In this document: in pieces, positions 4,425 through 61,336 of the stretch
Numbering within the stretch: the stretch's first letter is position 1
Layout of the letters: each line of letters starts with the position of its first letter
Source: a virus
DNA: 64,000 bases
Virus record (IMG/VR): IMGVR_UViG_3300050821_004119
Span: 1 to 64,000 of that record
Strand: one strand, 5' to 3'
Notes under the pieces: model-generated
The model's database searches: none
Told to the model about the DNA's origin: nothing
What the model saw: only the letters and a program-made list of their open reading frames with translations
Program-made: the position numbers and the translations under genes

Positions 4425-4633
4425 TAAAATTTTACTCCATTCGCAATCAACAGAAGTCTAATCATTACATAGAATACTGAAGGAACATAAAACCAAAATT
4501 CTAAGGGATTACAGAAACAACATAATTTGTTGTTCTCACTGCATGACCATGTTTTGATACGCATAAATATTCTCAATATTGCAATCAATATATTAATCAT
4601 CATGATTAATTGGATGTCTATTGTACATCCCAT
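4424..4633 (-). CDS. Small membrane protein, 69 aa
   Basis: I choose the ATG at 4633, which has a GGAG 9 nt upstream, over an ATG 9 codons earlier that lies inside the preceding gene. Two hydrophobic segments (IQLIMMINILIAILRIFMRI and FWFYVPSVFYVMIRLLLIA) flank a short Cys-rich loop (SCSENNKLCCFC). A two-span hairpin in the membrane with a possible metal or disulfide loop is likely. No family recognised. Confidence 0.65.
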   Translation of the reverse strand: MGCTIDIQLIMMINILIAILRIFMRIKTWSCSENNKLCCFCNPLEFWFYVPSVFYVMIRLLLIANGVKF

Positions 4634-4634
4634 G

Positions 4635-4820
4635 TTAGCAATCTCCAAAACATGTATCATGAAATTTAGCTAATTCTTCATCTGTAAGTCCAACATGCTT
4701 CAGTGGGTGATAAAGAGCCCAAGGATTCTCCAGCATTGGTTTTGCATGTTTTGTTACATCGGTAACAGTATGATTTTCCACAGGAATTTGATCTTCGATG
4801 TTGTTGTCATATCCGAACAT
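4635..4820 (-). CDS. Hypothetical protein, 61 aa
   Basis: Acidic small protein beginning MFGYDNNIEDQIPVENHTV. The C-terminal part (ENPWALYHPLKHVGLTDEELAKFHDTC) looks like a compact helical motif. TAATG overlap with the preceding gene. Function unknown. Confidence 0.6.
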   Translation of the reverse strand: MFGYDNNIEDQIPVENHTVTDVTKHAKPMLENPWALYHPLKHVGLTDEELAKFHDTCFGDC

Positions 4821-8498: not shown

Positions 8499-8652
8499 GA
8501 TTTTTTAGAAAATACCAAGCGTTACGCAATACACATTCAATCAATGGTTCAACTCCATACATTTGTGGACGGCGTGTTATAACACTTATATGTTGAAGAA
8601 GTTCTTCTTTGTCCATGTTATGAGGAACGAACATGATATTAGGATTACTCAC
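8488..8652 (-). CDS. Hypothetical protein, 54 aa (GTG start)
   Basis: The reading frame VSNPNIMFVPHNMDKEELLQ... has a GTG whose bases overlap the TGA of the upstream gene (GTGA), matching the coupling pattern of the operon. It ends ...NAWYFLKNHEE and overlaps the next gene. The segment HISVITRRPQMYGV resembles small phage proteins with a conserved RRPxMYG motif. Function unknown. Confidence 0.55.
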   Translation of the reverse strand: MSNPNIMFVPHNMDKEELLQHISVITRRPQMYGVEPLIECVLRNAWYFLKNHEE

Positions 8653-8903
8653 TTTGAAAACCCTTCATTCTTGACCCAATAATCTGTTCCTGAGAAACAC
8701 GTTTCGTTCAGGTAATATACACGAGTTTCTTCTTGTCCACTACAATTGTGATGACTAATAATTGAAGAATCTGGAAAATGCTTTTGGCAAAATATACAGA
8801 TAAAATAAAACTGACCAGTTTCCTTGCCAGTTAATTCTGTGATAACCGGAAAGGATTTACATTGAAAAACCCTACCGTACCAGTAATCCTTGATATTAGC
8901 CAT
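8649..8903 (-). CDS. Putative zinc-finger protein, 84 aa
   Basis: Begins MANIKDYWYGRVFQCKSFPV. Contains CIFCQKHFPDSSIISHHNC, a CxxC followed by His and Cys ligands, a plausible single zinc site. A stop/start overlap of 1 nt joins it to the helicase gene. Function unknown. Confidence 0.65.
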   Translation of the reverse strand: MANIKDYWYGRVFQCKSFPVITELTGKETGQFYFICIFCQKHFPDSSIISHHNCSGQEETRVYYLNETCFSGTDYWVKNEGFSK

Positions 8904-10345
8904 TATCGAATTTCCTTAAAATTGAATTTGGACTCATGCTTGTATATGCTGATACGCTTGCGAGTGTGATAGGCGAGCAGGTCTACAGAAGGTTTATAGT
9001 CGGCGACTTCAGCATGTGTTTTGCCAGGCGCATTTCGTAATGTTCTGCCTATGCGCTGATATACTTTGACGCTGGACTTGCCACCTCCTGCCATGTTTAG
9101 GGCATCTATGACGGGCAAGTCTAGGCCCTCGTCTGCAATACTGGTTCCGATAAGATGTCTTAACTTTCCTGATCGGACATCATTAAAAATCTTTTCTCTA
9201 TATTCTGAAGAATCCTTACCAGAAAGAAAGACAGTTTTTATTCCGCGAGCATTATGCAGCTTTTCGAGAGCAACCCCATGTTTGATCTGGGTAACGAGCG
9301 TCAGAATTGTTCTTCCGGCGTCGTACCATTCACGATTGATCTCAAGAACCTGATGGTGAAAATTAGTATTTTCCGTATAATAACATTTATTTAGAGTATG
9401 CCAATTGTCTTTTGGAGAACATCGTTCCTTTGGTTCGGCCTGTTGATGAACAGTCACGTTCGCAGGCACTAAATATCCCTTGTCAACAAGATCACTGATA
9501 CCTATATCGAATATCCTGGGACCTACAGCGGCTTCTATGAGCAGGTCGGCTCCGTCGTCGCGCCAGTCAGTTGCGGATAGTCCTAGACGCCATGTGGCGT
9601 TCTTGCACTTCTTCATTACCTGTGCGAAGGTGTCTGCAACAATGTGATGCACTTCGTCTACTATAACGACGTTCGCATCTTCGAGAAGTTTAATTACTTC
9701 TTCCTTCTTAATATTCAAGATTTCTTTTTTGTCTTCTGATTTATCCTCATGAATATCAAGGGCATAGGTAACAGTCTGCATTGTACAAATCGTAATAATA
9801 TTTGGTTCAAATATGCCACCTCCGCAAATACCTACAGCATCGAAATGTAATAGGCCGCGAAGAACTTCAGCAAACTGCTTCAGCAGGTCGATACGATGTA
9901 CTAGGATAACTGTGCGACGCTCAAGGCGGCTGACTAGGTGGGAAGAAACGAAAGTTTTGCCTGCGCCGGTAGCCATTCTAATAATTCCACACTTGTTTGT
10001 AATCGCTGATCGAATAGCTTCCTCTTGATACGGTCGAAGAGATAGTGCATCTTCTTTAATAGGATTAAAGAATTCGGGAGGCGATTCGATACGATTATCC
10101 CTTATCTGATATTCCAATCCATGTAGGTCTAGAAATTGTGTCACTCTTTGAAGCAGACCAGTTTGAAATACCCTGGTGGACGGCGTGATAAGGTACTTCC
10201 TTTCAGTCACATGTGGGTTAAAAGCCTTTTTGTGCATGAAATCTGGGTCCCTAAAACTGAGTTCCTGCATCAGGATAGTAAAGATTTTTTGATCAATAAT
10301 GCCAGTTATCTTGGACATTGTAGGAGTAACGTCAATTATTAACAT
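8903..10345 (-). CDS. UvsW-like superfamily 2 DNA helicase
   Basis: I start this at the ATG at 10345, which overlaps the preceding stop (TAATG) and has GGAAG upstream; a longer frame exists but lies inside the upstream gene. The 480-residue product has an N-terminal domain of about 100 residues, a Q-type motif (LRPYQEEAI), Walker A ATGAGKT (125-131), DEVHH (230-234), SAT (257-259) and motif VI QRIGRTLRN. This is the layout of phage UvsW/XPB-like helicases that remodel recombination intermediates and stalled forks. It lies two genes from the resolvase and recombinase, consistent with that role. Confidence 0.9.
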   Translation of the reverse strand: MLIIDVTPTMSKITGIIDQKIFTILMQELSFRDPDFMHKKAFNPHVTERKYLITPSTRVFQTGLLQRVTQFLDLHGLEYQIRDNRIESPPEFFNPIKEDALSLRPYQEEAIRSAITNKCGIIRMATGAGKTFVSSHLVSRLERRTVILVHRIDLLKQFAEVLRGLLHFDAVGICGGGIFEPNIITICTMQTVTYALDIHEDKSEDKKEILNIKKEEVIKLLEDANVVIVDEVHHIVADTFAQVMKKCKNATWRLGLSATDWRDDGADLLIEAAVGPRIFDIGISDLVDKGYLVPANVTVHQQAEPKERCSPKDNWHTLNKCYYTENTNFHHQVLEINREWYDAGRTILTLVTQIKHGVALEKLHNARGIKTVFLSGKDSSEYREKIFNDVRSGKLRHLIGTSIADEGLDLPVIDALNMAGGGKSSVKVYQRIGRTLRNAPGKTHAEVADYKPSVDLLAYHTRKRISIYKHESKFNFKEIR

Positions 10346-10707
10346 TAAGTATCTTCCATTATCGTTTGATATGCAGTCAACACTCTTGAACACGTCTCAT
10401 ATTTAGATTTACAACCACTTGCTGCTTTTTCAAGGTAATCACGAGCAGCAATCCTAATTTTATCCGTTCCAGCAGAGTAACGCACAGCTCCCCATAAACC
10501 AATAAGATAAGAATATGTTGAACCATAGAAGGCTAATAGGCGAATTAACTTCGCTACATTTTCTTTACTAGGTCCAGAATCAGGAATATCTTGTTGTTCA
10601 TCATCAATCAGATATTGAATCTCATCCAATAGTGCAGGAAAGGCATTATCAACATAGGATAATACATTATTGGTGTTGACTAAACCCCTAGCCGAACGAG
10701 CATTCAT
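10345..10707 (-). CDS. Hypothetical helical protein, 120 aa
   Basis: Predominantly alpha-helical protein with no Cys motif or membrane segment. Overlaps the P-loop gene by 4 nt (ATGA) and the helicase start by 1 nt. It sits between recombination genes, but no function can be assigned. Confidence 0.65.
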   Translation of the reverse strand: MNARSARGLVNTNNVLSYVDNAFPALLDEIQYLIDDEQQDIPDSGPSKENVAKLIRLLAFYGSTYSYLIGLWGAVRYSAGTDKIRIAARDYLEKAASGCKSKYETCSRVLTAYQTIMEDT

Positions 10708-11222
10708 AACTTGCGTTTCACCGCATCGAATAGAATATCTAATCCAGATGGATTACCCTGAACAACGGCATAAATACTTCGTTGAGATTTCAAAAGTTGT
10801 AACATTTCATTATCTAGTGCCTGGGCTTGTAATTCTGTTTGACTACGACCAGCAGGATTGTAAATCTTTGTTCGCTCTATAAAAATGTCATAATGATTTT
10901 GAGATTCATGTAAGTCTGTAATCAGTGAACGCAGATTATATTCGTTTGGTTTTATATATAATGTTTGTAATAACAACGGAGAGTCTGTGACAATTGCTTG
11001 AACCTTGCCGATCAATCTGTGTAGTCGATGACTTTGTTCTCCTAAAACATAAACCTGATTAGATAAGGCATGTTGTCTGCCTTCCCATGTTAAATCCTTA
11101 GCAAACTCAGTAACCAACTCTACATTAAAACCGTCTGTTTTCAATTTAAAAAATAAACCAGCGGCCATTGTAGACTTACCAGCACCAGGTCCAGCAAATA
11201 GATTTACAACTAATGTATTCAT
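10704..11222 (-). CDS. P-loop NTPase, probable nucleotide kinase
   Basis: A 172-residue single-domain protein. The Walker A GPGAGKS (11-17) comes directly after the first beta strand (MNTLVVNLFA), as in small nucleotide and shikimate-type kinases; VTDSPLLLQ resembles the second acidic strand. A deoxynucleoside or nucleoside monophosphate kinase is a reasonable guess given the dNTP genes, but substrate residues are not diagnostic. Overlaps neighbours by 4 nt on both sides. Confidence 0.7.
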   Translation of the reverse strand: MNTLVVNLFAGPGAGKSTMAAGLFFKLKTDGFNVELVTEFAKDLTWEGRQHALSNQVYVLGEQSHRLHRLIGKVQAIVTDSPLLLQTLYIKPNEYNLRSLITDLHESQNHYDIFIERTKIYNPAGRSQTELQAQALDNEMLQLLKSQRSIYAVVQGNPSGLDILFDAVKRKL

Positions 11223-11380
11223 CGTTTACCATAATCTATAACAATTTTCTTCTCTTTATACATCTTGAAAACATTTAGAAGATCGTCATAATCTTCAGGA
11301 AACATAAAATTACCACGCGTAACAACTTCATATTCAAGATTATATTGCTGAAGTTTGTTAATTAATTCCTTAACCTTCAT
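11219..11380 (-). CDS. Hypothetical protein, 53 aa
   Basis: The reading frame MKVKELINKLQQYNLEYEVV... fills the gap between the resolvase and kinase genes, with ATGA overlaps at both ends. The arrangement helix, two strands (YEVVTRGNFMFPEDY), helix is plausible for a small folded domain. Not recognised. Confidence 0.6.
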   Translation of the reverse strand: MKVKELINKLQQYNLEYEVVTRGNFMFPEDYDDLLNVFKMYKEKKIVIDYGKR

Positions 11381-11886
11381 GATACTTTCTTCTTTGCAGG
11401 CTTCTTAGGAGCCTTTAGTTCAAATTCACCCTTGAGAATAGCTTCACCACATTTGGCAAGTATGAAAGCATCGCATTCATCCTGTGAAGGAAAATCAATT
11501 TGCCACTTCTTATAGACAGCCAATGCCAAATCAGCTTTACCCTTAGATTTTCCACCTTTAGGCGTTTTTATCTCAAGGAAGCGTTTCATCGTTGTTGAGG
11601 CAACTGTAATAAACGGAATATTTTTCTCAATACAAACTCTTTGAATTATGTATTGAACCATACCGCTCTCAGCAACTCCAAACTTAGCAGCAAATGCAAG
11701 ACCTTCATGAACAACTAAGTCAATGTTATTCTCAATGTCTTCGTTTAATCTTTGTTCTAATGAATATAAACGATAGGCATTGTTGTCATGTTCAGCGGCA
11801 CTAATTTTCCAAGTATTATATCCCGTTTCATAAATGAGACATAGTGCCATATTGGTTAAGCCGGGATCAATTCCAAGAATTTTCAT
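11377..11886 (-). CDS. RuvC-like Holliday junction resolvase
   Basis: A 169-residue RNase H-fold nuclease. GIDPGLTN near the start gives catalytic Asp7. VVHEGLAFAAKFG provides the second acidic residue, and the C-terminal QDECDAFILAKCG helix carries the last acidic pair, the RuvC/poxvirus A22 pattern. It would cleave branched DNA before packaging. Start overlaps the recombinase stop by 4 nt. Confidence 0.88.
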   Translation of the reverse strand: MKILGIDPGLTNMALCLIYETGYNTWKISAAEHDNNAYRLYSLEQRLNEDIENNIDLVVHEGLAFAAKFGVAESGMVQYIIQRVCIEKNIPFITVASTTMKRFLEIKTPKGGKSKGKADLALAVYKKWQIDFPSQDECDAFILAKCGEAILKGEFELKAPKKPAKKKVS

Positions 11887-19750: not shown

Positions 19751-20073
19751 ATTAATCCTTTTATCGTAAAAGATATTAGTGCGAAAATACTGTAGGAGAT
19801 CAGGCAGGCTATCCCTGCTGTTAGAATCGACAGAAAAATGCCTCCTGCGACCCAGGAGCACGCCCAGGCTAGTTTTGCGAACCAGAACACGATTAGGTCG
19901 ATTATCGCGAAGAACGCCGTGTTTATCAGGAGTGTGACAACAACTTCTGCGGTCGAATTATATTCATGGTGCGCCTGTAGCCAGCCTGGCCGTTGTAGAT
20001 TTTCCATATGCGCCTGCCCTCTATGATGGGGGGTGTGGTAGTGCTCATGGTGGCGCATGTGTGCGTGTCTCAA
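19729..20073 (-). CDS. Two-span membrane protein with His-rich N-terminus, 114 aa
   Basis: The N-terminal 30 residues contain about ten His (HAHMRHHEHYHTPHHRGQAH), suggesting metal binding. Two long hydrophobic segments follow (about 45-70 and 75-105). The probable start is a TTG at 20073 overlapping the preceding TGA (TTGA), matching the coupling used throughout; an ATG 5 codons later is the alternative. Role unknown. Confidence 0.6.
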   Translation of the reverse strand: MRHAHMRHHEHYHTPHHRGQAHMENLQRPGWLQAHHEYNSTAEVVVTLLINTAFFAIIDLIVFWFAKLAWACSWVAGGIFLSILTAGIACLISYSIFALISFTIKGLICLFNLI

Positions 20074-21166: not shown

Positions 21167-21796
21167 CTATAAAATTGGTAGTGTAGAAAGAACTCCTCGG
21201 ATATTATATATTCTCGATGTAATATAACTGGAGGAATACCCTAGTGTGTTTGCAACTGTTTGGATCATGTTATTAGAAAGTCGATTTTTATTTGTGAAAC
21301 ATGGAACTAATTGTTGGCTATCGGTTTCACCATACATAATCAATTGAAGAATCTTGCGATCAAGAGGTTTTAATCTTGCGATAATTTCTTCGATCATCAA
21401 GTCGCTTAATGTTTCATTTTCATAATTTCGATCTTCTGCAATTCCGTATGCTGTTGCTGTTAGTTCTGTGAATTCAATTCTGTGTTTACGATTAAGACGA
21501 AATTCTTGAACCAGAAAATCCCTTACATTATATATGCCGCATGTCCTACAGAATTGCTCTGGGTCATTGTTACCTCTACCGTCGTCAACTATATTTGCAC
21601 GGTCGATACCACGGTTTGCACCTAGCATAAAATATTGCATGCATTCGTTGTCGATAATGTTGGAAGTAATTAAACCTCCTGCGATCTTCTTAGAAAACTG
21701 TGTGATGTAGTATTTATTCTGTTTTGCTAGTTTTATTAGGAATGCGTCTCGCAAATCATTATTGATTCGCATTTCTACGAATTTACTAATTACCAT
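21167..21796 (-). CDS. Sigma-factor-like HTH protein, 209 aa
   Basis: The C-terminal 70 residues (IIARLKPLDRKILQLIMYGE... then NMIQTVANTLGYSSSYITSRIYNIRGVL) have the layout of sigma-70 region 4: an L-x-x-L-D-R/E-x-x-I-L-x-L-x-x-x-G/E-E turn, then a helix-turn-helix where NTLGYSSSYITSRIYNIR is the recognition part. The N-terminal part has a C-x2-C (CRTCG) and helices that could stand for region 2, but no clear region 2 signature is visible. A phage sigma or sigma-like transcription regulator is inferred; it would be a candidate reader of the unusual promoters in this genome. Confidence 0.55.
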   Translation of the reverse strand: MVISKFVEMRINNDLRDAFLIKLAKQNKYYITQFSKKIAGGLITSNIIDNECMQYFMLGANRGIDRANIVDDGRGNNDPEQFCRTCGIYNVRDFLVQEFRLNRKHRIEFTELTATAYGIAEDRNYENETLSDLMIEEIIARLKPLDRKILQLIMYGETDSQQLVPCFTNKNRLSNNMIQTVANTLGYSSSYITSRIYNIRGVLSTLPIL

Positions 21797-22452: not shown

Positions 22453-22785
22453 TTATATCAAATCACTAAGACGCATGTTCAATAAACATCCACTATTTCT
22501 CATTCGTATGTTTTCTCTTGCTTGCAAAATCATATCCGAAGGTTTCACTAAAAAATCGGATGAAAAAATTACTTCGTGGTATTTTTCAGGGTAATTGGCA
22601 GTTTTATGTGAGATGCTTTGATGGTTACTCGTCGTAACCGAGTATTTCGTTGCATTGAAAATATACCCAAGGGTTTCATCATGGGTTCGGATGCACTGTT
22701 TATATGAGTAAACATTCCCTAATTTATCTTCTTTGTACGCAGAACCTTTGCCTGGCAAACCTGTTTGTGAACACATCTTAGGCAT
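22453..22785 (-). CDS. Hypothetical protein, 110 aa
   Basis: Start placed at 22785 because a GGAG precedes it by 8 nt; a longer frame would run far into the upstream gene. Begins MPKMCSQTGLPGKGSAYKED. Mixed composition with many aromatic residues. Unknown. Confidence 0.6.
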   Translation of the reverse strand: MPKMCSQTGLPGKGSAYKEDKLGNVYSYKQCIRTHDETLGYIFNATKYSVTTSNHQSISHKTANYPEKYHEVIFSSDFLVKPSDMILQARENIRMRNSGCLLNMRLSDLI

Positions 22786-23231: not shown

Positions 23232-23254
23232 ATTATACTTCAGGAACGTGACTA
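23232..23254 (-). promoter_or_regulatory. Candidate promoter with an overlapping copy of the dispersed motif
   Basis: On the minus strand TAGTCACGTTCCTGAAG is followed directly by TATAAT (23232-23237). The first part is a copy of the TGTCACnnTCCTGrAG motif with its first base changed, placed where RNA polymerase would contact the spacer. No good -35 is visible. It would drive the leftward array at 19.6-23.2 kb. Confidence 0.5.
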
Positions 23255-23411
23255 ATAACTACCTTTTCTGTAAAGAACTTGTCACAATGCTGAAATTTTG
23301 TGTGAAAATGCCGAAAGCACCCGTTTCTTCCTTATATGCAATTGTTTTTGCTATTCAATAGGTCTAATTGTTAGGAGCAAGTAAAGCATGCGATTTTAGT
23401 AGTCAAAAGAC
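23255..23411. other. Divergent intergenic region with a motif copy
   Basis: Between the leftward and rightward arms. It holds another copy of the dispersed motif (TTGTCACAATGCTGAAAT, 23279-23296) and no gene. Likely a regulatory switch point between the two transcription directions. Confidence 0.4.
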
Positions 23412-23812: not shown

Positions 23813-23867
23813 TTTACAATCTTAGGGCTTGTGTCCCTAAAGTTTAGGTGTACAATGTCGATATACT
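23813..23867 (+). promoter_or_regulatory. Repeated promoter module A (TTTACA-41-GATATACT)
   Basis: TTTACA (23813-23818), exactly 41 bp, then GATATACT (23860-23867) preceded by ATGTC, and a GGGAG ribosome site 8 bp later. The same layout recurs at 25348, 25943 and 26678. TTTACA is too far upstream to be a normal -35 for this -10. Confidence 0.55.
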
Positions 23868-26952: not shown

Positions 26953-27736
26953 CTTTATGTCCTAATCAAGGTTAGCAGGCAGGAATGACGAAACGCTCAA
27001 TTTGACGCTTATCGCAGCGAATAGCTTGTAAATTGTAGAGACCTTTATTTTTTCGCCGCCAAGAACCTCAAAGCATAAGAACACCTAGATGAATACCTGA
27101 TCGTACACATAGCAGAACCCCTCCAGCAGGGCGTTCATATATAATAATGGCATTATCCCTCATTATATAGCCTGTCACGCTCCTGAAGGCATTTTAGGTA
27201 TATAGGCGAGCAGGGATAGCATGAGGATATATCATAGGAGGTCGTATGGGCTGTCACATTCTTGGAAGGGAGCATACGTCACAATCCTGGAGTATCTCTT
27301 GAATAGAACCTCGCAGGGCATTGTCACAATCCTGGAGGGGTGCGTGGGCGTACGTCCCTCGCGCTATTCACTCGGCATCCCACCGATTTCCTTGAGATTC
27401 AGGATTGTGACATCGCAGCAGCATGCCTAGCAGCGCGCCGTCATCCTCCCGCCATATCAAACATCGTAAACAGGGGTCGATGCGCTACAGGCAACGCTAG
27501 GCCATTGCATTAATGAGCGTCCTAAAACACGTCCAACATCACCCCTTGTAGAGCATGACCCTTTGTGCTCAACGGGTGGGATGCGCCTGCCCCATGACGC
27601 TCAATTTCGCGCGCGATGGAGTCTCTGCCCCATGTTTTGCCGGGGTGTCTCTCTGTGGGAAATCGGGCTACCCCCAAACCACACCCAAACTCGACACCCC
27701 TATTAACCTCAGGATTGTGACAACACTTAACAACAC
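26953..27736. other. Non-coding control region with repeated motif; candidate origin or regulatory hub
   Basis: About 780 nt with no supported gene. It holds six copies of the motif TGTCACnnTCCTGrAG: 27173-27188, 27252-27268, 27277-27292 and 27322-27337 on plus, 27399-27412 and 27709-27722 on minus. Other short features are CTGCCCCATG twice (27587, 27627), a GAGCA/TGCTC hairpin near 27551 and a direct repeat CAACACTTAA before the promoter at 27737. Clustered directional repeats fit an iteron-type origin, a packaging site or an enhancer-like array; the sequence does not decide. Confidence 0.5.
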
Positions 27737-27765
27737 TTAACAACCCTTGACAGCCGTGGTATACT
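27737..27765 (+). promoter_or_regulatory. Strong promoter TTAACA-17-TATACT
   Basis: TTAACA (27737-27742), 17-bp spacer, TATACT (27760-27765), with TGG just before the -10 (extended). Predicted start near 27772. The block TTGAC..CCGTG.TATACTG is shared with the promoter in front of the tRNA-Asp gene. Confidence 0.75.
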
Positions 27766-27771
27766 GATAAC

Positions 27772-27862: not shown

Positions 27863-27934
27863 TCAAAATAATCGTAGTCGCATTACGACAATCGTGATAA
27901 AATGAAATATAATTCTCAACATTGTGACATAAAT

Positions 27935-27990
27935 CCATATGTTAAGAAATAAAAGAAATTGAACATATGGGTTGACTACCGTGTTATACT
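27935..27990 (+). promoter_or_regulatory. tRNA promoter with upstream inverted repeat
   Basis: CCATATGTT and AACATATGG (27935-27943 and 27962-27970, spacer 18) form a perfect inverted repeat. TATACT (27985-27990) follows with TGT before it. The predicted start is about 1-2 nt before the tRNA, so the primary transcript would begin almost at its mature 5' end. Confidence 0.6.
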
Positions 27991-27998
27991 GCTCGCAA

Positions 27999-29334: not shown

Positions 29335-29490
29335 ATGCCTAAGGCTAAAAAAGTAATAACAAAAATTATTCCAGTCGTTGATCCTTGCGTTGGTCAGGAC
29401 TATGCACGTCAGCAGGTGACTAATCAACTTGTTCGTAACGCGGTCGCCGACTTTATGGAACTATGGAATCCGTGGAAATTCTTAAAATGA
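29335..29490 (+). CDS. Hypothetical basic protein, 51 aa
   Basis: MPKAKKVITKIIPVVDPCVG... , with AGGAG upstream and an ATGA overlap with the next gene. Lys-rich N-terminus; helical C-terminus (VADFMELWNPWKFLK). Unknown. Confidence 0.58.
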   Translation: MPKAKKVITKIIPVVDPCVGQDYARQQVTNQLVRNAVADFMELWNPWKFLK

Positions 29491-29648
29491 TTAATGTAGG
29501 GGATCATGTGACTCACAAACACTTTGGTGAAGGTATTGTGATTGAGATCGAACCAATTGTGGTTGAGTTTCATCCCAAACCATTTGTAAAGATTTTCAAT
29601 GTTTTCAACTCTGTGCAGTTGGATGTGGTAAAATCTGTGCATGAATAA
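29487..29648 (+). CDS. Tudor/SH3-like small protein, 53 aa
   Basis: MINVGDHVTHKHFGEGIVIE... matches the GDxVxHxxFGxGxV motif of the Tudor-like domain at the C-terminus of PcrA/UvrD helicases and of CarD-type RNA-polymerase-binding domains. A free-standing domain could target host RNA polymerase or a helicase; this is inference. Start chosen at the ATGA overlap (29487). Confidence 0.62.
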   Translation: MINVGDHVTHKHFGEGIVIEIEPIVVEFHPKPFVKIFNVFNSVQLDVVKSVHE

Positions 29649-30336
29649 TAATTATATTGCTTACTATCGGGTCAGCACGAAGGATCAAGGTCGGTCAGGT
29701 CTTGGTCTTGAAGCACAAGAAGCAACTGTAAAAGAATACTGTTTGAAGAATGATTTGAATTTGATTGCTTCTTATACAGAGGTTGAGACTAGCACAAAAG
29801 ATACATTGGAAAATCGTCCAGTGTTACAAAAAGCTCTTGGGCATTCTAAGAGAATTAGTGCTGTATTAATTATAGCCAAACTTGATCGACTTTCTCGCTC
29901 TGTGTATGTTACTTCATTATTACATAAGTCTGGTGTGGAATTTTTGTGCTGTGATATGCCATTAGCCAATAGGTTCACTATTAATATTCTTGCAGCAGTT
30001 GCTGAACAAGAAGCGCAAATGATTAGTGAACGTACTAAGGCAGCATTAAAGGCTTTAAAAGCCCGTGGTATTAAGTTAGGTACTCATCGTCCAGAGTGTG
30101 CTAATAATTTATCTGAAGAAGGAAGACAACTTGGTAATAAACGAGGTTCTTCTAGGAATCGACAGATTAAAAAAGAGGCTTACGCTGATATACTTCCAGA
30201 GATTGTGGCAATGCGTCATAGTGGCATGCAGATTAAAGATATTACTTTAACCCTCAATGATAAGGGTTATACAACTCGTACAGGTTGTGGTTTTCATACA
30301 ACAACTGTTCGGCGCTTACTTGCATTAGGAGTTTGA
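29641..30336 (+). CDS. Small serine recombinase (resolvase/invertase family)
   Basis: 231 residues. YYRVSTKDQGRSGLGLEAQ gives catalytic Ser12 and Arg10; LDRLSRSVYV and EQEAQMISERTKAAL are the remaining conserved blocks. The C-terminal 60 residues (MRHSGMQIKDITLTLNDKGY...TTVRRLLAL) form the HTH. Too short for a large serine integrase, so resolution, inversion or a transposition-like role is more likely than standard integration. Overlaps the preceding gene by 8 nt. Confidence 0.9.
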   Translation: MNNNYIAYYRVSTKDQGRSGLGLEAQEATVKEYCLKNDLNLIASYTEVETSTKDTLENRPVLQKALGHSKRISAVLIIAKLDRLSRSVYVTSLLHKSGVEFLCCDMPLANRFTINILAAVAEQEAQMISERTKAALKALKARGIKLGTHRPECANNLSEEGRQLGNKRGSSRNRQIKKEAYADILPEIVAMRHSGMQIKDITLTLNDKGYTTRTGCGFHTTTVRRLLALGV

Positions 30337-32098: not shown

Positions 32099-33983
32099 TC
32101 CTAGGGGTGTAGACGGTCATCACGCGGGCGGCGGCGCACGTAAGAAGACGACTACGTACCTCGACATTGATAAGGTATCCGATAAGGCATCTAAATTGAT
32201 GACCTCTATTGATGATTACCTGAACGCACTACCTGACGAAGACGAAGTTGTCGATGAAATATTTAAGGAAAAGTTTGTAGATTTAAGAACCTGGCTTTAT
32301 GCTCCTGAATATATGGGTCTTGAAATTCAGTTATCGCCGATTCAGTTCGAAGTTATGCAAGCAATGGATAATTATGATCCAACGACTAATCCTTATACTG
32401 AAGCAGTCTGTGAATGGGGTAAAGGATCAGGAAAAGACTTTGTGTCTGCTCTTTGTGCTCTTCGTTGTGTCTATTGGTTGCTATGTTTAAGAAGTCCTTA
32501 TCTTTATTACAAGTTAGCAAAAGGTACTGGAATTCAACTTTGTAATGTCGCTTATACTGCTGAACAGTCAATTTACGTTTATTTTAAGCAATTAACCGGA
32601 TTGATTAAGGCTTCATCTTGGTTTGTGAAACAAAAACCTGATATTAAGAAGTCCAGAATTGATTTTGCAAATGAAATTACTCTTGTGTCTACTTCTACTG
32701 ACGGCGATAGTGCTGAGGGTCAGAATCTTATATTTGCGGTTATGGACGAAGCATCGGCTTTTAAAGATTCAAAGACGATTAAGGCGCAGTCGCGCAAGGA
32801 TGGGGTTAAAGTAGACCGAGCAGCAGATGGAATATATAAAGTATTAAGATCATCTATTAATTCTCGCTTTCCTAACTCTGGAAAATTAATGATCATCTCT
32901 TATCCTCGTTATAAGGATGATTACATTCAAACAAAGTTAGAAGAGAATAAAAATGCCACAAAAGGTTTCATTTCTGGTCCCTATGCAACTTGGGAAGTTA
33001 ATCCATCTAAACAAAGATCTGATTTTAATGAGGATTATGAAAAGAATCCTGAATTAGCCGATGCAATGTATGGTTGTAATCCTCCCTTTTCTGAGGACGC
33101 TTGGGTTAAGTATCCAGATAGATTCCTAAAATGCATTCTTAATTCGGTGAAATTAAATACTTTAAAGTCACCGATTAATGAATATGGCATTTATGATCCC
33201 TTTTTCCAGGGAACACCTGGTAAGCTATATTGTATTCATGTAGACCTTGCGCTTAATTCAGATAAGTGTGCTTTATCGCTTGCTTCGCAGGGACATCCTA
33301 TTATCAAAGAGAAGTGTCCTTGTGGAGCTAATGCTCCTTGGGATGAGAAATATGAAGTTTGCAGTAGTTGTGGTTTAACAAAGGACAAATGGCTGAAGAT
33401 TTCAATGCCAACAATGGTTGTTTCTTTATTGAAACATTTTCGCCCCAGAAGTTCTGCATCGGGTAGACAAGAAGTACATTTCGCTGATATTCGTGAGGAA
33501 ATTCTCTTTCTTCGTGATCGCGGACATAAAATATGGGCTCTATCATATGACGGATGGCAATCAAGAGATTCCATTCAGACGATGCAGCGTCTCTTAGGAA
33601 AACGAATTATCAAGGATAGATGGGGACAACCTATTCGTGAAGAGGAAATAGCTCAAACTTTATCAGTTGACCGAGATACTAAGGCTTATGACACATTAAA
33701 AGAGTTTATTTATGATGAGAGATTTTTTATAACACCTCCTGAAGATGTGAAGAAAAAAGAAGATTGGGAAACCTCAGAAGATCCAGTAGCAATTGCGTTT
33801 AGGGAATTTAGGGGATTGAGACTAATTAATGCAAAAAAGGTAGACCATGCGATTGGATCAAGTAAGGACTTCACAGATGCAATAGCAGGATGCGCTTATT
33901 GGATATCACAGATGCCAATATCAAGAGGCAGAGGTCCATCTTTAAATGGTTGGCGCGAGAATATTAGTACGGATAGGAGATAA
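32088..33983 (+). CDS. Terminase large subunit (packaging motor)
   Basis: 631 residues. Walker A EWGKGSGKD (109-117), Walker B IFAVMDEAS (215-223), and a coupling region. The nuclease domain begins YCIHVDLALNSDKC with catalytic Asp386. A four-cysteine ribbon (C410, C412, C425, C428) is inserted after the first nuclease strands, which is uncommon in TerL. It powers DNA packaging and cuts genome ends. Confidence 0.93.
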   Translation: MPSNPRGVDGHHAGGGARKKTTTYLDIDKVSDKASKLMTSIDDYLNALPDEDEVVDEIFKEKFVDLRTWLYAPEYMGLEIQLSPIQFEVMQAMDNYDPTTNPYTEAVCEWGKGSGKDFVSALCALRCVYWLLCLRSPYLYYKLAKGTGIQLCNVAYTAEQSIYVYFKQLTGLIKASSWFVKQKPDIKKSRIDFANEITLVSTSTDGDSAEGQNLIFAVMDEASAFKDSKTIKAQSRKDGVKVDRAADGIYKVLRSSINSRFPNSGKLMIISYPRYKDDYIQTKLEENKNATKGFISGPYATWEVNPSKQRSDFNEDYEKNPELADAMYGCNPPFSEDAWVKYPDRFLKCILNSVKLNTLKSPINEYGIYDPFFQGTPGKLYCIHVDLALNSDKCALSLASQGHPIIKEKCPCGANAPWDEKYEVCSSCGLTKDKWLKISMPTMVVSLLKHFRPRSSASGRQEVHFADIREEILFLRDRGHKIWALSYDGWQSRDSIQTMQRLLGKRIIKDRWGQPIREEEIAQTLSVDRDTKAYDTLKEFIYDERFFITPPEDVKKKEDWETSEDPVAIAFREFRGLRLINAKKVDHAIGSSKDFTDAIAGCAYWISQMPISRGRGPSLNGWRENISTDRR

Positions 33984-33984
33984 C

Positions 33985-35667
33985 ATGCTTACGAAAATCA
34001 ACGACAGGCCAAAAGCAAATCGTAGAACATACAGTTTTGAAGTATTGCATAATAGCAAGGATACCTTTGAATCTGATATGAACAATTTCCTTGAGCATGT
34101 TACGAAACGACGTTTTTTCGAAATTCAACAGGAAATATTAGGGCAAAAAGGCCCAACTAAGAATTCAACCATTGGTCAGAAGAAAAGCGTCGGAGGCAAA
34201 TTAAAACTTCGTCTTCCGATTTCAACGATTGCTGGTTTTGGTAATCAATCTGAGCAGACTTTAATGTCGGCATTTGGTTGGTATTGGGAACCGTTATTGC
34301 ATGATCTTGTGTTTTTTGAAGAAATGCGCGCAGCAGTTTCTCTTATTGATGGACAAGTTAATAAGCTGGTCGATACTGCTCTTTTGGGATTCCGCATTGT
34401 TAATGATGACCCAGAAGTTGTTAAAAATGTCAGCGAATTAATGCTTTATAACCAAAATGTGAATTTAAGAGAGTCAATTCGTCGTTGCATGGTAGATTTA
34501 TTCTCTATCGGTAATAGTTATACAAAACCAGAGTGGACTAAAACTGCTGCTGGAATGACAACGTTAGAAGTGATTCGTCCAGTTCGTGCAAATGCTATAC
34601 GTAAGTTGCGTAATGAGAAATTAGCAACCGAAGGATATGTCCAGTTGCTTCATCGTCCATCTGAATTTATTCTTGGTGGCACACCGCATACGCCTACGAT
34701 TTATCTATATGATGAAATGCTTTGTGGTATGCAACGTAGCACTGGATGGTATGCCTATGGTGTTCCGTTATTGGCATCATTGCCGTTCGCAATTAAACTG
34801 AAACTTCAAATGGAACGCGATTTGGCCGAGATGTTGCATCAACATTTGCCTCGTATTGTTGTGAAATTCTCCCCAGATGACCAAATGAATCAAGAACAAG
34901 TCGATCAGGCTCTTGCTGATTTGACAACTAAAGTTTCTCAAATGCGTCCGTCTGATAATTTTGCAACAACTCCTGACGTTGATATTACATATGCTGGTCC
35001 CCAGGGACATGCATTAGACTTTTCTTCTACACAGAAACACATCGAGGAACAGTTATTTTATGTTCTACCGTTCGCTCCATCAATTATGGGACTTGACTCT
35101 AAGTCTAATCCTTTCGATTCTCAACAACATTGGACTGTTGCCGTCAATACTGCTTATGACCTTAGACACGCTATTGGTGTTATGTTCCGCCCGATGTTTC
35201 GTGTTCTTGAAGAAGATTGGGGTTGCAGTGAAATAAGTATTGGATACGATGATCTTGATCCCGAGATGACCCAGAAGCATGCTGAGACTGATGAATATGT
35301 GACTAATAATGCTGTGTTAAAGCGTGACAATGGATTTCTCGATCAGGACACCGCTGCAATACAAGCAACCGCCCATCATCCAGATGGTTCTGTCAAGAAG
35401 GCCGCGAAGCCAGGAGCAATTCCTCCTCCCGTTGCCAATGACGGAACGAATACGAACGGAATTCCGAATAAACCGAAGAATTCTGGTAATCCTAAACCTG
35501 CTAAAGGCAAGGAACCTGTGAAGCCAAACGGTCGCGTTAGAACAAAGGGTCCTAAGAAGGATGGTACGAAAGTTCCCGATAAGGATAACCGTACTAAAGG
35601 AAAGAGACATTCGTTTCAGGATGAGGCACTTGCTCAATGGGCGATCTCTGAACTTAATGATGAATAA
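33985..35667 (+). CDS. Portal protein
   Basis: 560 residues from the ATG after AGGAG at 33985 (a longer frame runs into terL). The order terminase-portal-protease-capsid identifies it. Internal features fit: a helical stem region with acidic C-terminus and a Pro/Lys-rich tail (residues about 480-545). No catalytic motif. Confidence 0.85.
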   Translation: MLTKINDRPKANRRTYSFEVLHNSKDTFESDMNNFLEHVTKRRFFEIQQEILGQKGPTKNSTIGQKKSVGGKLKLRLPISTIAGFGNQSEQTLMSAFGWYWEPLLHDLVFFEEMRAAVSLIDGQVNKLVDTALLGFRIVNDDPEVVKNVSELMLYNQNVNLRESIRRCMVDLFSIGNSYTKPEWTKTAAGMTTLEVIRPVRANAIRKLRNEKLATEGYVQLLHRPSEFILGGTPHTPTIYLYDEMLCGMQRSTGWYAYGVPLLASLPFAIKLKLQMERDLAEMLHQHLPRIVVKFSPDDQMNQEQVDQALADLTTKVSQMRPSDNFATTPDVDITYAGPQGHALDFSSTQKHIEEQLFYVLPFAPSIMGLDSKSNPFDSQQHWTVAVNTAYDLRHAIGVMFRPMFRVLEEDWGCSEISIGYDDLDPEMTQKHAETDEYVTNNAVLKRDNGFLDQDTAAIQATAHHPDGSVKKAAKPGAIPPPVANDGTNTNGIPNKPKNSGNPKPAKGKEPVKPNGRVRTKGPKKDGTKVPDKDNRTKGKRHSFQDEALAQWAISELNDE

Positions 35668-35668
35668 T

Positions 35669-35715
35669 CTCAGGATTGTGACAAAATAGTTACTTCTATT
35701 GATCACTATGTTTTA
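35669..35715 (+). promoter_or_regulatory. Candidate late promoter 1 (motif CTCAGGATTGTGACA)
   Basis: CTCAGGATTGTGACA (35669-35683), AATAGTTA 16 nt from its start, and CTATGTTTTA (35706-35715) 37 nt from its start. The element at 44668 has the same three blocks at identical spacing. It precedes the protease/scaffold-capsid genes. Confidence 0.6.
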
Positions 35716-35734: not shown

Positions 35735-37612
35735 ATGGCTGATTCTACGCATGAACTTAATGATGTATTAAAGCAGTTGTCTGAATCAGGCGATTATGCT
35801 TCTTCTACTGTTCTAACGGAAGAATCAAAAACTGGCGTCAAAATTCCTTCTAGTCATTTGGCTAAAATTCAAAAGTGGACCCGTGAAGATATTGATAAAG
35901 AACTTATTCATACTTTCCCGGTTATTATGATTGACACCGAACCGACCCGTAACTTGGTAGTATATACTGAAGCGTCGCAAAAGAAGTCCTTAAAAGGATG
36001 GATTGGACGTACGGTCCTGTTTAATTGGAACGGCTCTGGTAATGTCGGAATAATTGGTCAAGCTGATCATTCACTTCAAGCTGCCTCACAAACAGCTCGT
36101 ATATATGATGCTCGTATGGTAAGAACCCCTAGTGGAGCAGTTGGTACGCTTGGTTGGTTTTATGCCGTTGAAGGCGTCGATGTTATTATTGATTCATTTA
36201 TTAAGAAGTTAAACGCCGGTGTTCTCCGTGAAGTATCAATTCACGTTGCAGTTCCAGAAGGTGTTGTTTGTTCAATAGATGGTAAATCTTTTTCTGGTTA
36301 TGAAGGTGGTGCTCATACCGAAGAAGAAGAAAAAACTATTTGTTTCGATCATCAGCCTGGCAATAAGTATGGACGCGAAGTTTGTTACATGTCTACTGGC
36401 GAAGGTAGACTTGATCCGCTTGAACTCAGTGCTGTTGCGGTTCCTGGATCTATTAATGCTCATGTCTTAAAAGACGATGAAGTTGAAAATTATAAAATTG
36501 TCTCTTTAAAAGAGGCTCTCGGTGGTTCTAATCACTTGAAGGAGATAATCATGGCTAAGAAGACGAAGACGGTCGCAGCCTTAGAAGAAATCGCGAACAT
36601 TGCGAAGAATGCTGGATTCCTTCAAGAAGCGAAAGAAGATCCTGCGGATGGCGATTGCGGCAAATGCGGACATGCTTCACATGAAGGCGCATGCTCTAAA
36701 AATTGTGGATCTTGTTCTAAAGATGAAACTGCTGATCCTAAGACTGCCAAGCCTGGAACGAAAACCAAAGATGAAGAGTCTAAGGATGACGAAGAAGAAT
36801 CCAAGAGCGAAGAAGAAGAGAATGGCAAAGATACGCCAGGTAATGATCGCAAAGATTTGAAAGTCAAAAAGGGCGAAGCTGTTTCTCCCAAAACCTCTAA
36901 ACCTGGAACAAAAACCAAGGATGAAGAGAAGAACGAAGAAGAGGAAGAAGCTGCTGATCCTAAGTCCAAAAAGCCTTCTACTACGACTAAAGATGAAGAG
37001 AAGAACGAAGAAGAAGAGCGTATGGATGATCCTGATGACAAAAAAGAAGAAGATGAAGAAAAAGAATCTGATCCGCCAGAAGGCGATGATGACTCTAAGA
37101 AATCCAAGAAGGCTTCTAAGCAATCCTTCCTGTTCGATGACAATTGCCCAGCTTGCGGCGGGAATAAAGAAACCGTCCAGCCATTATCTGAGTCCGAAAC
37201 GATCTCATTAATGCGCGATACATTCAAAGAACAAGTCGAAATCATCATTAAAGTTGCCAAGGAAAAGATCGCTACGGCAAAGCAAGCGGCAGTTCGTGCC
37301 GAGCAGTTCGACGAAATATTTGACCTGTTCGTTCAAGAAACGGCTACCATGGCTGTTAATAGTGGCCTGAAGAAATTTCAGGAACGTGACAATTATATTG
37401 TAACCCTAAAAGCATTATCTTTTAATGCTGTACGGGAAATTCGCGAGACACTTTCTTTGAAAGATTCCGCTCGTGAAGATAAAGTTGAAGTTATTCGTCA
37501 ATCAATGATGGAAAGATCCAAACAGAATCTTGGAACAATCATTGAAGATGATAACGGCAAAAAGAAATCTTCTAATGGCGTAAGCGCCCGTCCAAAATTT
37601 GGCCTAAGGTAA
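35735..37612 (+). CDS. Prohead protease with C-terminal acidic scaffold domain
   Basis: 625 residues. The N-terminal 260 look like an HK97-type prohead protease: LREVSIHVAVPEG and LDPLELSAVAVPGSINAHV resemble the ...SxG/V... and ELSxVxxPAxxxA motifs. A GHASHEGACSKNCGSC cysteine cluster follows, then a highly acidic region with three imperfect repeats of (A)DPKxxKPgTKTKDEEknEEEE (residues about 330-430). The helical C-terminus ends VSARPKFGLR. It resembles protease-scaffold fusions in other siphoviruses; the catalytic triad is not certain. Confidence 0.7.
   Translation: MADSTHELNDVLKQLSESGDYASSTVLTEESKTGVKIPSSHLAKIQKWTREDIDKELIHTFPVIMIDTEPTRNLVVYTEASQKKSLKGWIGRTVLFNWNGSGNVGIIGQADHSLQAASQTARIYDARMVRTPSGAVGTLGWFYAVEGVDVIIDSFIKKLNAGVLREVSIHVAVPEGVVCSIDGKSFSGYEGGAHTEEEEKTICFDHQPGNKYGREVCYMSTGEGRLDPLELSAVAVPGSINAHVLKDDEVENYKIVSLKEALGGSNHLKEIIMAKKTKTVAALEEIANIAKNAGFLQEAKEDPADGDCGKCGHASHEGACSKNCGSCSKDETADPKTAKPGTKTKDEESKDDEEESKSEEEENGKDTPGNDRKDLKVKKGEAVSPKTSKPGTKTKDEEKNEEEEEAADPKSKKPSTTTKDEEKNEEEERMDDPDDKKEEDEEKESDPPEGDDDSKKSKKASKQSFLFDDNCPACGGNKETVQPLSESETISLMRDTFKEQVEIIIKVAKEKIATAKQAAVRAEQFDEIFDLFVQETATMAVNSGLKKFQERDNYIVTLKALSFNAVREIRETLSLKDSAREDKVEVIRQSMMERSKQNLGTIIEDDNGKKKSSNGVSARPKFGLR
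36551..37612 (+). CDS. Nested in-frame scaffold protein start inside the protease gene
   Basis: A strong AAGGAG followed by TAATC and ATG (36551-36553) lies in frame at codon 273. Translation from it would give a 353-residue acidic scaffold (MAKKTKTVAALEEIANIAKN...) without the protease. Phage lambda C/Nu3 uses the same trick. Expression is inferred from the ribosome site only. Confidence 0.6.
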   Translation: MAKKTKTVAALEEIANIAKNAGFLQEAKEDPADGDCGKCGHASHEGACSKNCGSCSKDETADPKTAKPGTKTKDEESKDDEEESKSEEEENGKDTPGNDRKDLKVKKGEAVSPKTSKPGTKTKDEEKNEEEEEAADPKSKKPSTTTKDEEKNEEEERMDDPDDKKEEDEEKESDPPEGDDDSKKSKKASKQSFLFDDNCPACGGNKETVQPLSESETISLMRDTFKEQVEIIIKVAKEKIATAKQAAVRAEQFDEIFDLFVQETATMAVNSGLKKFQERDNYIVTLKALSFNAVREIRETLSLKDSAREDKVEVIRQSMMERSKQNLGTIIEDDNGKKKSSNGVSARPKFGLR

Positions 37613-37625
37613 GAGGAGCACTAAC

Positions 37626-38168
37626 ATGGCATCTACATTCGCACGAGTCTCAGGGGTCTTGATTGATCCTCTTACAGCGCAAACTAATTCGTTGTATGCT
37701 GATCCTTCTTTAAATGCTGGTAGCTCGAATGCCGCCGCAGTTGTTCCGGTGACGGGCTCAACAGCCCTTTACGGTCAGCTTTGGCGCGGTATGCCGATCT
37801 TCGTGAACCAAACGACTGGTAAATTGGTTCCCCCGAATGATGCAGGCGTGTCTGGTTCGACTTCATTGTATCTTGGCGTCTTAGTTGACGACTTCACGAG
37901 TTTCCACCTTGCGCGTGGAACGAAAGTTCCTTACATTGCTAAGGGTCGCGTTCGTTCTTATGCTGGCGGTACACTGACCATTGGTCAGGCTGTCAAGCCG
38001 GACACCTCTTCTAACTTCTCAGGCTTCGTTGCCTGGGTCGAAGGAACTGATGATCTTGCGCTGCGTGTTGGACAGTTCCTTCCTATAGATGACGGTTCTG
38101 CTGAGAACGGTTCGACTGCTGGAACCGGCGCGGTTCAGGGCGATACGATCTTCGTAAACCTGATCTAA
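37626..38168 (+). CDS. Putative capsid decoration (head) protein, 180 aa
   Basis: Small, Gly/Thr/Val-rich beta protein directly before the major capsid gene, the usual place of decoration or stabilising proteins. AGAGGAG upstream. Contains GRVRSYAGGTLTIGQAVKPD, similar in style to other head-decoration proteins. Specific fold not proven. Confidence 0.65.
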   Translation: MASTFARVSGVLIDPLTAQTNSLYADPSLNAGSSNAAAVVPVTGSTALYGQLWRGMPIFVNQTTGKLVPPNDAGVSGSTSLYLGVLVDDFTSFHLARGTKVPYIAKGRVRSYAGGTLTIGQAVKPDTSSNFSGFVAWVEGTDDLALRVGQFLPIDDGSAENGSTAGTGAVQGDTIFVNLI

Positions 38169-38232
38169 AATTCAATTTGAGGCAATAGGAGATTATTCAG
38201 GAAATTTTTACTCCATCCAAGGAGAGTCTACA

Positions 38233-39351
38233 ATGTCAACCCAAATTAAGAAAGTGTCATCTTTGACGGAAGCAATTGCATCAATTGTTACCGCTGTTGG
38301 TGAACGTACCCCCTTGAAGGCTTTTGACAAAGTTAAAAAGACTTCTGTCGCGGCGCAGTGCCGTGAAGCCGGAATTACAATTGGGGAATTGGCTGAATCC
38401 CTTGGTTATGGAGATGCCTCTTCATTCCTTAAACAGCAGCTTAATGTCGATACCAAAACTCTTCGCCTCGAAGAACTTTGGACATCTGATGAACTTCACG
38501 GTATGCAACCGGAACTGTTTCTTGATACGATTCTTATGGCTAACCTCAATGCGATGGTTACACATAACTTCGTTACGGAAATTCCGATCAACCGTGGTGA
38601 AATCGTTGTTCGTACGTTCGAAGACGGCGGACAGGTTTATGAAGTCGGACAAGGTGAAACGATTCGCGACGATCAGGGTGTCATCATCCGTCGTACGGTC
38701 TTCATAAAGAAAATTGGTCGTGGTCTTAATTGGTCTTATGAAGAAGAACGTCGTACGCAGTTCCCGCTGATTCAAATCAATTTGATGCGTATCGGCCTTC
38801 GTATGGCTCTTAAAAAGGACCTTGATGTTCTGAACGTGCTTCGCACGGGTATCCCGGCTCAACTGTCGAATGGTTCACAGCCTGCTCAAGCCGCGATTCC
38901 AACCCCAGTGTCAGTGTCTCAGTCGAATACCGCTGGTTCGGGTGTTCCCGCTGGTCAGCTAGTGTTCGCCGACATCGTGCAAATCGTTACCGATATTGCT
39001 AACCGCAATTATCATGGCGACTTCGCAGTGATGAGCCCCGTAACGTACGGTAAGTTCGCCCTTATTCCCCAGGTTTCCAATTACCTCAATGCTGGTCCGA
39101 TGGCGAGCAAGGTTCTTGAAACCGGCGTGATCTCCCACTTCTTCGGTCTGGATCTCTTCATTACGAAGCAAATGCCTGATAATGAAATCCTTGCCGGTCA
39201 AAAAGGCTTCGCTGGAGCGATCTTTGTTGAACAGCCCTTGTTGCTGGAAGAAGAGAAGATCATATCGAAGCAGATCGAACGCTGCCAGGTTACTGAATGC
39301 TACGGACCAATGGTTCTGTACACGCAGGCGCTCACGAGACTTCCTTTCTAG
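38233..39351 (+). CDS. Major capsid protein
   Basis: 372 residues, HK97-fold candidate by position (after scaffold and decoration genes), size, and composition. AAGGAG precedes the ATG. A hairpin follows the gene. Residues about 80-170 include a long strand/helix block (NRGEIVVRTFEDGGQVYEVG), plausible for the E-loop and spine region. Confidence 0.82.
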   Translation: MSTQIKKVSSLTEAIASIVTAVGERTPLKAFDKVKKTSVAAQCREAGITIGELAESLGYGDASSFLKQQLNVDTKTLRLEELWTSDELHGMQPELFLDTILMANLNAMVTHNFVTEIPINRGEIVVRTFEDGGQVYEVGQGETIRDDQGVIIRRTVFIKKIGRGLNWSYEEERRTQFPLIQINLMRIGLRMALKKDLDVLNVLRTGIPAQLSNGSQPAQAAIPTPVSVSQSNTAGSGVPAGQLVFADIVQIVTDIANRNYHGDFAVMSPVTYGKFALIPQVSNYLNAGPMASKVLETGVISHFFGLDLFITKQMPDNEILAGQKGFAGAIFVEQPLLLEEEKIISKQIERCQVTECYGPMVLYTQALTRLPF

Positions 39352-44165: not shown

Positions 44166-44666
44166 ATGTACCCAATTGGCGAATCTTTTACGACATTAAT
44201 GTCGGTGGCCTTTCTCAATAGTTTGCAAGATGCAAATATGATATTGCCTACGACCCTGGGTTCTTCTGCGCTCTTTCCCTCGGATAGAATCAAAATCGTA
44301 TTAGGCAATGATGCTGCTGTTGTCGGTTCTAAAGATGTAATTGCTCTTCCTCTTAATCTCCCAACTTCCTTTATAGCTATTGGAAGACCATACGGCACAG
44401 AACATGGGTACTGTGGCGCGGATGTGAATACGGTTGTTCGTTGTTATATTCCCTTTTCCGTGTATGCAATGACAGCCGCAACTCAAGATGATATTGAACA
44501 GCGGTTATTGTTCTCTCGCCAACACCGTCAAAATGTCTATTCCTCTTATGGACTGGATATAATTGTCGCCTATACAAACGTCCGTGGTCGCCCTAGAACT
44601 CCGTCGCCGATCACTGGCCTCTTTGTCGTAGATTATGCCTATGAATTCTATTATGATCGTTCTTGA
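44166..44666 (+). CDS. Putative tail completion/terminator protein, 166 aa
   Basis: AAGGAA upstream. Last gene before late promoter 2 and the tail tube gene. A size of 166 residues is typical of tail terminators, but no motif is diagnostic. Confidence 0.5.
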   Translation: MYPIGESFTTLMSVAFLNSLQDANMILPTTLGSSALFPSDRIKIVLGNDAAVVGSKDVIALPLNLPTSFIAIGRPYGTEHGYCGADVNTVVRCYIPFSVYAMTAATQDDIEQRLLFSRQHRQNVYSSYGLDIIVAYTNVRGRPRTPSPITGLFVVDYAYEFYYDRS

Positions 44667-44667
44667 T

Positions 44668-44714
44668 CTCAGGATTGTGACATAATAGTTATTGATATAA
44701 CACTCTATGTTTTA
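44668..44714 (+). promoter_or_regulatory. Candidate late promoter 2 (motif CTCAGGATTGTGACA)
   Basis: Same blocks and spacings as 35669: CTCAGGATTGTGACA (44668-44682), AATAGTTA (44684-44691), CTATGTTTTA (44705-44714). It lies just before the tail-tube gene. Confidence 0.6.
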
Positions 44715-44766
44715 AGGGTGTATAGCGGATATTATTCTATTTTCATTTTAATTTAGGAGCACTACC

Positions 44767-61294: not shown

Positions 61295-61298
61295 GGTC

Positions 61299-61336
61299 AC
61301 ATTCCTGAGATACTCCCAATATTTCAGGAATGTTTT
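61299..61336 (+). terminator. Terminator-like hairpin ending the tail cluster
   Basis: ACATTCCTGA (61299-61308) pairs with TCAGGAATGT (61324-61333), followed by TTTC. The left arm also resembles the dispersed motif (GGTCACATTCCTGAGA, 61295-61310). Confidence 0.55.

Follow-up and report, generated by a model that had tools for sequence, protein, structure and literature searches.

A repeated asymmetric word as the probable binding site of an early-to-late regulator in an uncultivated tailed phage

Introduction

Why should one short DNA word recur at regulatory places scattered over a phage genome, and what reads it? The question is raised by a control region near 27 kb in a 64-kb stretch of DNA (the window), which is part of a 70,311-base IMG/VR virus record (G000). 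An initial annotation described a cluster of copies there, with others at late promoters, and suggested that one dedicated DNA-binding protein links replication or control with late transcription. Here we examine the word in the window and in related contigs.

Results

The phage and its relatives

To judge from its sequence, the window comes from an uncultivated tailed phage of bacteria. G000 encodes a DnaB-like primase-helicase, a RecA/UvsX-like recombinase, thymidylate synthase, terminase, a major head protein and a tape measure protein; a PHP-type DNA polymerase III alpha is encoded by the relative G002, and its G000 orthologue is interrupted by the record end. Replication genes run leftward (2-23 kb of the window), small genes rightward (23.4-26.9 kb) and structural genes rightward (31-64 kb). 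A noncoding stretch of about 1 kb (26.96-28.0 kb) is GC-rich first and AT-rich after. An Rfam scan found two tRNAs and nothing else.

The relatives compared were G002 (70,111 bases), G001 (11,559 bases) and L012 (5,051 bases), all metagenome contigs retrieved by portal and capsid protein searches, with 55-87% identity to the window in most structural proteins examined. Portal and capsid queries gave zero matches among 50,697 phage records, as did the portal query against bacterial genomes, and searches with the portal, capsid, primase-helicase and sigma-like proteins yielded no relatives beyond those contigs. By these searches, the phage belongs to a group without cultivated relatives that is known from metagenomes alone.

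The word is enriched, asymmetric and mostly intergenic

Read in the late direction, the best consensus is the 15-mer YTCAGGANYGTGACA (the refined motif), which has 15 copies in the window at two or fewer mismatches against 1.47 expected. The 16-mer TGTCACNNTCCTGRAG gave 12 matches at the same tolerance against 0.61 expected from shuffles, and none of 100 shuffles reached that number. Across 27 sites in three genomes the word is YYTCAGGANYGTGACA, with CAGGA and GTGAC almost invariant; it is asymmetric, with no dyad symmetry. For a 40-bp DNA-affinity probe, the word-bearing sequence is CTCAGGATTGTGACA. Intergenic DNA holds 12 of the 15 copies, against about 10% of the window that is noncoding (binomial P ~5e-10, a value to be read knowing that seven of the 12 form one cluster and are not independent, and that the coding list was compiled by hand from ORFs and orthologues). 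Random, mainly genic positions, which the initial annotation had named as the outcome that would count against it, were thus not what the window-wide scan returned. A literature search for the motif string found no match in a phage context, only unrelated animal and human studies. The viral contig L021, where the word follows a stop-like triplet, was set aside as an unrelated chance match.

G001 and G002 carry the word at places matching those of the window. It lies on the 3' side of the portal-position gene in all three genomes, before gene 44767 also in G002 (the G001 contig stops earlier) and at the start of the leftward operon also in G002; the third short contig, L012, bears an in-gene copy. 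The control-region clusters of G001 and G002 consist of leftward copies and then one rightward copy. No conserved site lies in the roughly 20-kb body of the leftward arm.

Two copies are doubtful:

61295-61310, minus strand: doubtful site in a terminator-like hairpin arm; three mismatches to the 16-mer, one to the refined motif
19924-19939, plus strand: doubtful in-gene copy; two mismatches to the 16-mer, one to the refined motif

The first does lie in a hairpin, as described, and no counterpart was found in G002. The second does lie inside a gene, but the single mismatch claimed for it holds only against the refined motif; it is probably a chance match, because G002 has no copy at the same place.

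Late sites share a second element at a fixed distance

Three positions in the structural arm carry the word, each followed by a second element:

35668-35683, plus strand: late site immediately following the stop codon of gene 33946-35667, by position the portal gene; also at the matching place in G001 and G002
35706-35715, plus strand: late -10-like element CTATGTTTTA, 22 bases past the 35668 site
37376-37391, plus strand: late site inside gene 35735-37612, upstream of the possible scaffold and major capsid genes; also in G002 and L012
37415-37424, plus strand: late -10-like element TTATCTTTTA, 23 bases past the in-gene site
44667-44682, plus strand: late site immediately following the stop codon of gene 44166-44666; also at the matching place in G002
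44705-44714, plus strand: late -10-like element CTATGTTTTA, 22 bases past the 44667 site

All structural-arm copies, in G000, G001, G002 and L012, are oriented with transcription. The second element was defined on the five late sites that lie between genes, drawn from three genomes, leaving the in-gene sites unused. At these five, 45 of 50 columns agreed with CTATNTTYWA, whereas none of 300 rotated controls exceeded 39. Before word and element were searched for together, and with one in-gene sequence already in view, the first position was relaxed from C to Y. The resulting YTATNTTYWA stands 22 or 23 bases after the word at seven of the eight late sites on four contigs, and at the eighth with one mismatch, in a small set that comprises three positions, each in two or three genomes. 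By chance, the widened element would fall at a gap of 22 or 23 with a frequency of 0.0007-0.003 per site, as estimated from shuffled local sequence.

Searching for the word plus the element with a gap of 21-23 bases, we obtained perfect matches in G000 only at 35669, 37377 and 44668, and in the relatives only at G001 10309, G002 13107 and 22530, and L012 71. The copy at G002 14778 (14777) has one mismatch in the element, and a combined match at G002 21918 has four mismatches in the word. The late positions hold the word, the 22- or 23-base gap and YTATNTTYWA, and a conserved -35 is absent. If TATNTT is the -10, as we infer, the word would lie at about -50 to -36, and this position together with the missing -35 suggests the layout of an activator-dependent promoter. 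The late-promoter architecture itself, as predicted by comparison of the contigs, is well supported.

The gene for the possible scaffold protein is weakly matched to PHROG 673 (E 0.023), and the product of gene 44767 would by position be the major tail protein. A further conserved sequence, ATAGCGGATATTATTCTATYTTCA, is found at 44720-44745 of the window and 22570-22595 of G002, in the leader of gene 44767 downstream of the predicted late promoter.

The in-gene copy is constrained at the DNA level

The copy at 37376-37391 was missing from the initial annotation and is kept in two relatives. It lies within the longest run of identical DNA between gene 35735-37612 and its G002 counterpart, TTTCAGGAACGTGACAATTATATTG, which is 25 bases long; the next longest is 14. 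The codon-by-codon alignment of the two genes holds 346 identical residues, of which 184 have identical codons (M and W excluded). L012 has CTCAGGAACGTGACA at the same place. Given the difference between the 25-base run and the next longest, the most economical explanation is selection acting on the DNA word as such, and the DNA appears to be constrained. A point against the late-promoter proposal is that the -10-like element in this gene coincides with a stretch where the protein too is conserved. An in-gene promoter before the capsid genes would mean that such elements hide in coding sequence and that conservation still reveals them.

The control region and the copies at 23 kb

The early copies are the following:

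23238-23253, plus strand: site in the gap that separates the leftward operon from the rightward small genes; one mismatch; abuts a leftward TATAAT at 23232-23237
23280-23295, minus strand: leftward-operon leader site, preceded by a predicted promoter (TTGAAT-N16-TATAAG, 23358-23331); counterpart at G002 69100
27173-27188, minus strand: control-region site 1; exact match; CAGGA..GTGACA reads leftward, with TATATAAT 3 bases past GTGACA
27252-27267, minus strand: control-region site 2; two mismatches
27277-27292, minus strand: control-region site 3; one mismatch to the 16-mer
27322-27337, minus strand: control-region site 4; exact match; adjoins a GC-rich block partly kept in G001 and G002
27397-27412, plus strand: control-region site 5; one mismatch
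27707-27722, plus strand: control-region site 6; one mismatch; counterparts at G001 2788 and G002 3319
27737-27765, plus strand: predicted promoter TTAACA-N17-TATACT with an extended -10, downstream of site 6
27914-27929, plus strand: weak control-region site 7, CTCAACATTGTGACA; two mismatches to the refined motif

The six copies reported between 27173 and 27722 are all there (two exact, three with one mismatch, one with two) and occur in both orientations as described, sites 1-4 leftward and sites 5-6 rightward; the copies given at 23238, 23280, 35668 and 44667 and the partial one at 27914-27929 were likewise recovered. The late element is absent from the copies in the early region (at 23.2 kb and at 27.1-27.9 kb), which keep no single distance to a -10. 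A fixed sigma-70 -10 downstream of the control-region sites was rejected, the only signal being a weak excess at a spacing of 14-15 bases.

Several early copies touch promoters predicted by consensus scans. The rightmost copy in G001 and G002 presents GTGACA as a -35-like element, 17 or 16 bases before a -10. Between site 6 and the promoter of G000 there are two copies of a 10-base unit (27720-27739), a duplication that, read from the sequence, adds about two helical turns relative to G001; the helical phase of site 6 relative to the promoter may matter. In G002, the copies at 166 and at 69966 share bases with the TAAAG box of predicted TAAAG-N16-CGATA promoters. Taken together, these placements, which depend on consensus-predicted promoters, fit repression or tuning.

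Promoter-like TAAAG-N16/17-CGATA sequences precede small early genes at 23838, 24419 and 26703 of the window, at G001 1221, 1639 and 1945 and at G002 177, 2561 and 69977. They resemble the flagellar sigma-28 (FliA) consensus, and in each of the three genomes it is the early control region where exact matches are concentrated; they could be read by host FliA or by a phage sigma factor.

Two further repeats or blocks were seen in the noncoding DNA. A 20-nt repeat, TTGAC[AT]nCCGTGnTATACTG, occurs at 27747-27766 and 27972-27991, the second copy just upstream of the tRNA-Asp gene. At 27618-27637, a 20-base block around GTCTCTGCCCCATGTTTT is identical in G002 amid diverged noncoding DNA.

A sigma-like protein and other candidates

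One conserved gene may encode a transcription factor:

21167-21796, minus strand: candidate ECF-like sigma factor of the phage, also conserved in G002

TIGR02937 is the sole NCBIfam match of both sigma-like orthologues, nearly full length with E-values of 0.005 and 0.004, which are below the cut-off. The protein has a weak Sigma70_r4_2 match and none to the Pfam family Sigma70_r2; a profile search of solved structures returned nothing, and the structure model (pLDDT 47) was too poor for fold searches. Comparison with Escherichia coli FliA and RpoE was near noise, the only likeness being a stretch resembling region 4.2 of RpoE. With modest support, then, the protein looks like a divergent ECF-type sigma factor, and it is possible that it is the RNA-polymerase partner at the late promoters.

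A LuxR/GerE-type HTH protein is encoded at G002 4434-4724 (locus L013), between the genes for a tudor-like protein and a serine recombinase; we rejected it as the binder of the word, the window having no orthologue at that place. The tudor-like neighbor (29463-29648 of the window, 4102-4437 of G002) is a small protein weakly similar to the PcrA/UvrD tudor and CarD/Mfd RNA-polymerase-interacting domains; in its G002 version two stretches are matched and the Pfam tudor threshold is passed.

Discussion

We propose, with a probability of roughly 0.55, that a single phage-encoded regulator has the word as its binding site and would run the early-to-late switch. The dedicated protein suggested at the outset is favored because the same asymmetric word is used at the 27-kb region and at the late positions, is kept in relatives and stands at a fixed distance from the late -10-like element; the link to replication that was suggested with it is only hinted at. 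At late promoters, which have the -10-like YTATNTTYWA and no recognizable -35, the regulator would bind at about -50 to -36 and recruit RNA polymerase, perhaps joined by the phage's own sigma-like factor. The three late promoters would serve head gene 35735, the scaffold/capsid genes 37626-39351 and gene 44767. Early, the same protein would occupy the clustered copies at 27.1-27.9 kb and those at 23.2 kb, where it probably represses or tunes early transcription and its own. The sequences show the sites, how they are conserved and oriented, and the constant spacing at the late ones; that binding activates at the late sites and represses at the early ones, and that the protein is encoded by the phage, are likewise our inferences. 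The proposal maps a possible early-to-late switch: three late promoters, one control region for early genes, and a bipartite late promoter for which other genomes can be searched. A more specific version is tentative: a hitherto unrecognized regulator family might read the asymmetric 15-bp word in the combination word-22/23-YTATNTTYWA together with the divergent phage sigma factor, and shut the TAAAG-N16/17-CGATA early promoters.

Activator sites that lie upstream of a -10 and replace a proper -35 are found at several middle or late promoters of other phages, as with the MotA boxes of T4 and the Ogr and C sites of P2 and Mu. The layout predicted here is similar, although the sequences, distances and proteins differ, and no MotA, Ogr or Mu C homologue was recognized in this phage. 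A single regulator with two roles has a precedent in phi29 p4, which represses early promoters by binding over their -35 and activates a late promoter whose own -35 is poor (PMC3100819). Our proposal resembles it on the late side, where the site lies upstream of a predicted late promoter without a good -35; on the early side, copies overlap promoters that are predicted by consensus only (G002 166/69966, G001 2788 and G002 3319). The p4 sites, however, are inverted repeats (CTTTTT-15-AAAATG) at one locus, and p4 acts with p6, whereas here copies of an asymmetric word are spread across more than 20 kb, with late sites at about -50 to -36. The word may work like a p4 site, but because it is asymmetric and dispersed we do not file it as a member of that class.

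It is unlikely, although the best of the rival explanations, that the copies are operators and stoperators of a prophage repressor in the manner of cluster A mycobacteriophages, where repressor bound to its site prevents transcription from starting or elongating. In L5-type phages, 20-30 sites of this kind lie in the direction of transcription (PMC6550527), and several features are alike: a short asymmetric 15-bp word recurs over the genome, for the most part reading with transcription, the late copies all do so, two of the three late copies lie directly past a stop codon, and the leftward-operon leader site (23280, G002 69100) also reads with transcription. A constant spacing from a -10-like element is not required of stoperators, but every late site has such an element at 22 or 23 bases; there are 12-15 sites where the L5 type has 20-30 through both arms, no conserved one lies in the body of the leftward arm and the cluster holds both orientations. 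Scans of the conserved proteins with Pfam, PHROGs and NCBIfam recognized no HTH immunity repressor, and the phage has a single recombinase, a small one of the serine type.

Rather improbable is a replication origin or centromere, in which a phage initiator or partition protein would bind the 27-kb cluster as iterons and the dispersed copies would be secondary. About 1 kb of noncoding DNA with seven copies in both orientations, GC-rich and then AT-rich, has the look of such a region, and the cumulative GC-skew minimum of G000 falls at 27935, although the skew is confounded with the direction of transcription. Iterons need no fixed spacing, but the late copies are tied to the -10-like element, and no initiator or ParA/ParB was recognized among the proteins scanned.

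The word could also be a direct promoter element, GTGACA serving as a -35 and the second element as a -10, both read by the sigma-like protein (21167-21796), which the initial annotation had put forward as a candidate reader. This we consider quite improbable. The phage does carry a sigma-like gene, and phage 7-11 has bipartite late promoters, GTAAtg-(16)-aCTA, that a phage sigma factor reads (PMC8948821); a dedicated two-part or single late motif alongside a phage sigma or sigma-like gene is common to phage 7-11, phiEco32 and the phage described here. The motifs do not match, however, the gap is 22 or 23 bases in place of 16 (or the usual ~16-18), and the conserved upstream part, at 13-15 bases, is wider than a usual -35. 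Early copies, moreover, occur in both orientations with no -10 at a fixed spacing. We rejected the sigma-like protein as sole reader because of the gap and of the missing fixed -10 in the early region. Chance or an assembly artefact might explain the two weakest copies (19924 and 61295) but is refuted for the main set, which is enriched, kept in independent contigs and constrained inside a gene.

Other features of the genomes

The small serine recombinase (29641-30336 of the window, 231 aa) is kept in all three genomes. At 970 aa, the terminase ORF of G002 (8578-11490, locus L013) exceeds its counterparts in the window and G001, which have 631, the extra length being a probable intein or other insertion.
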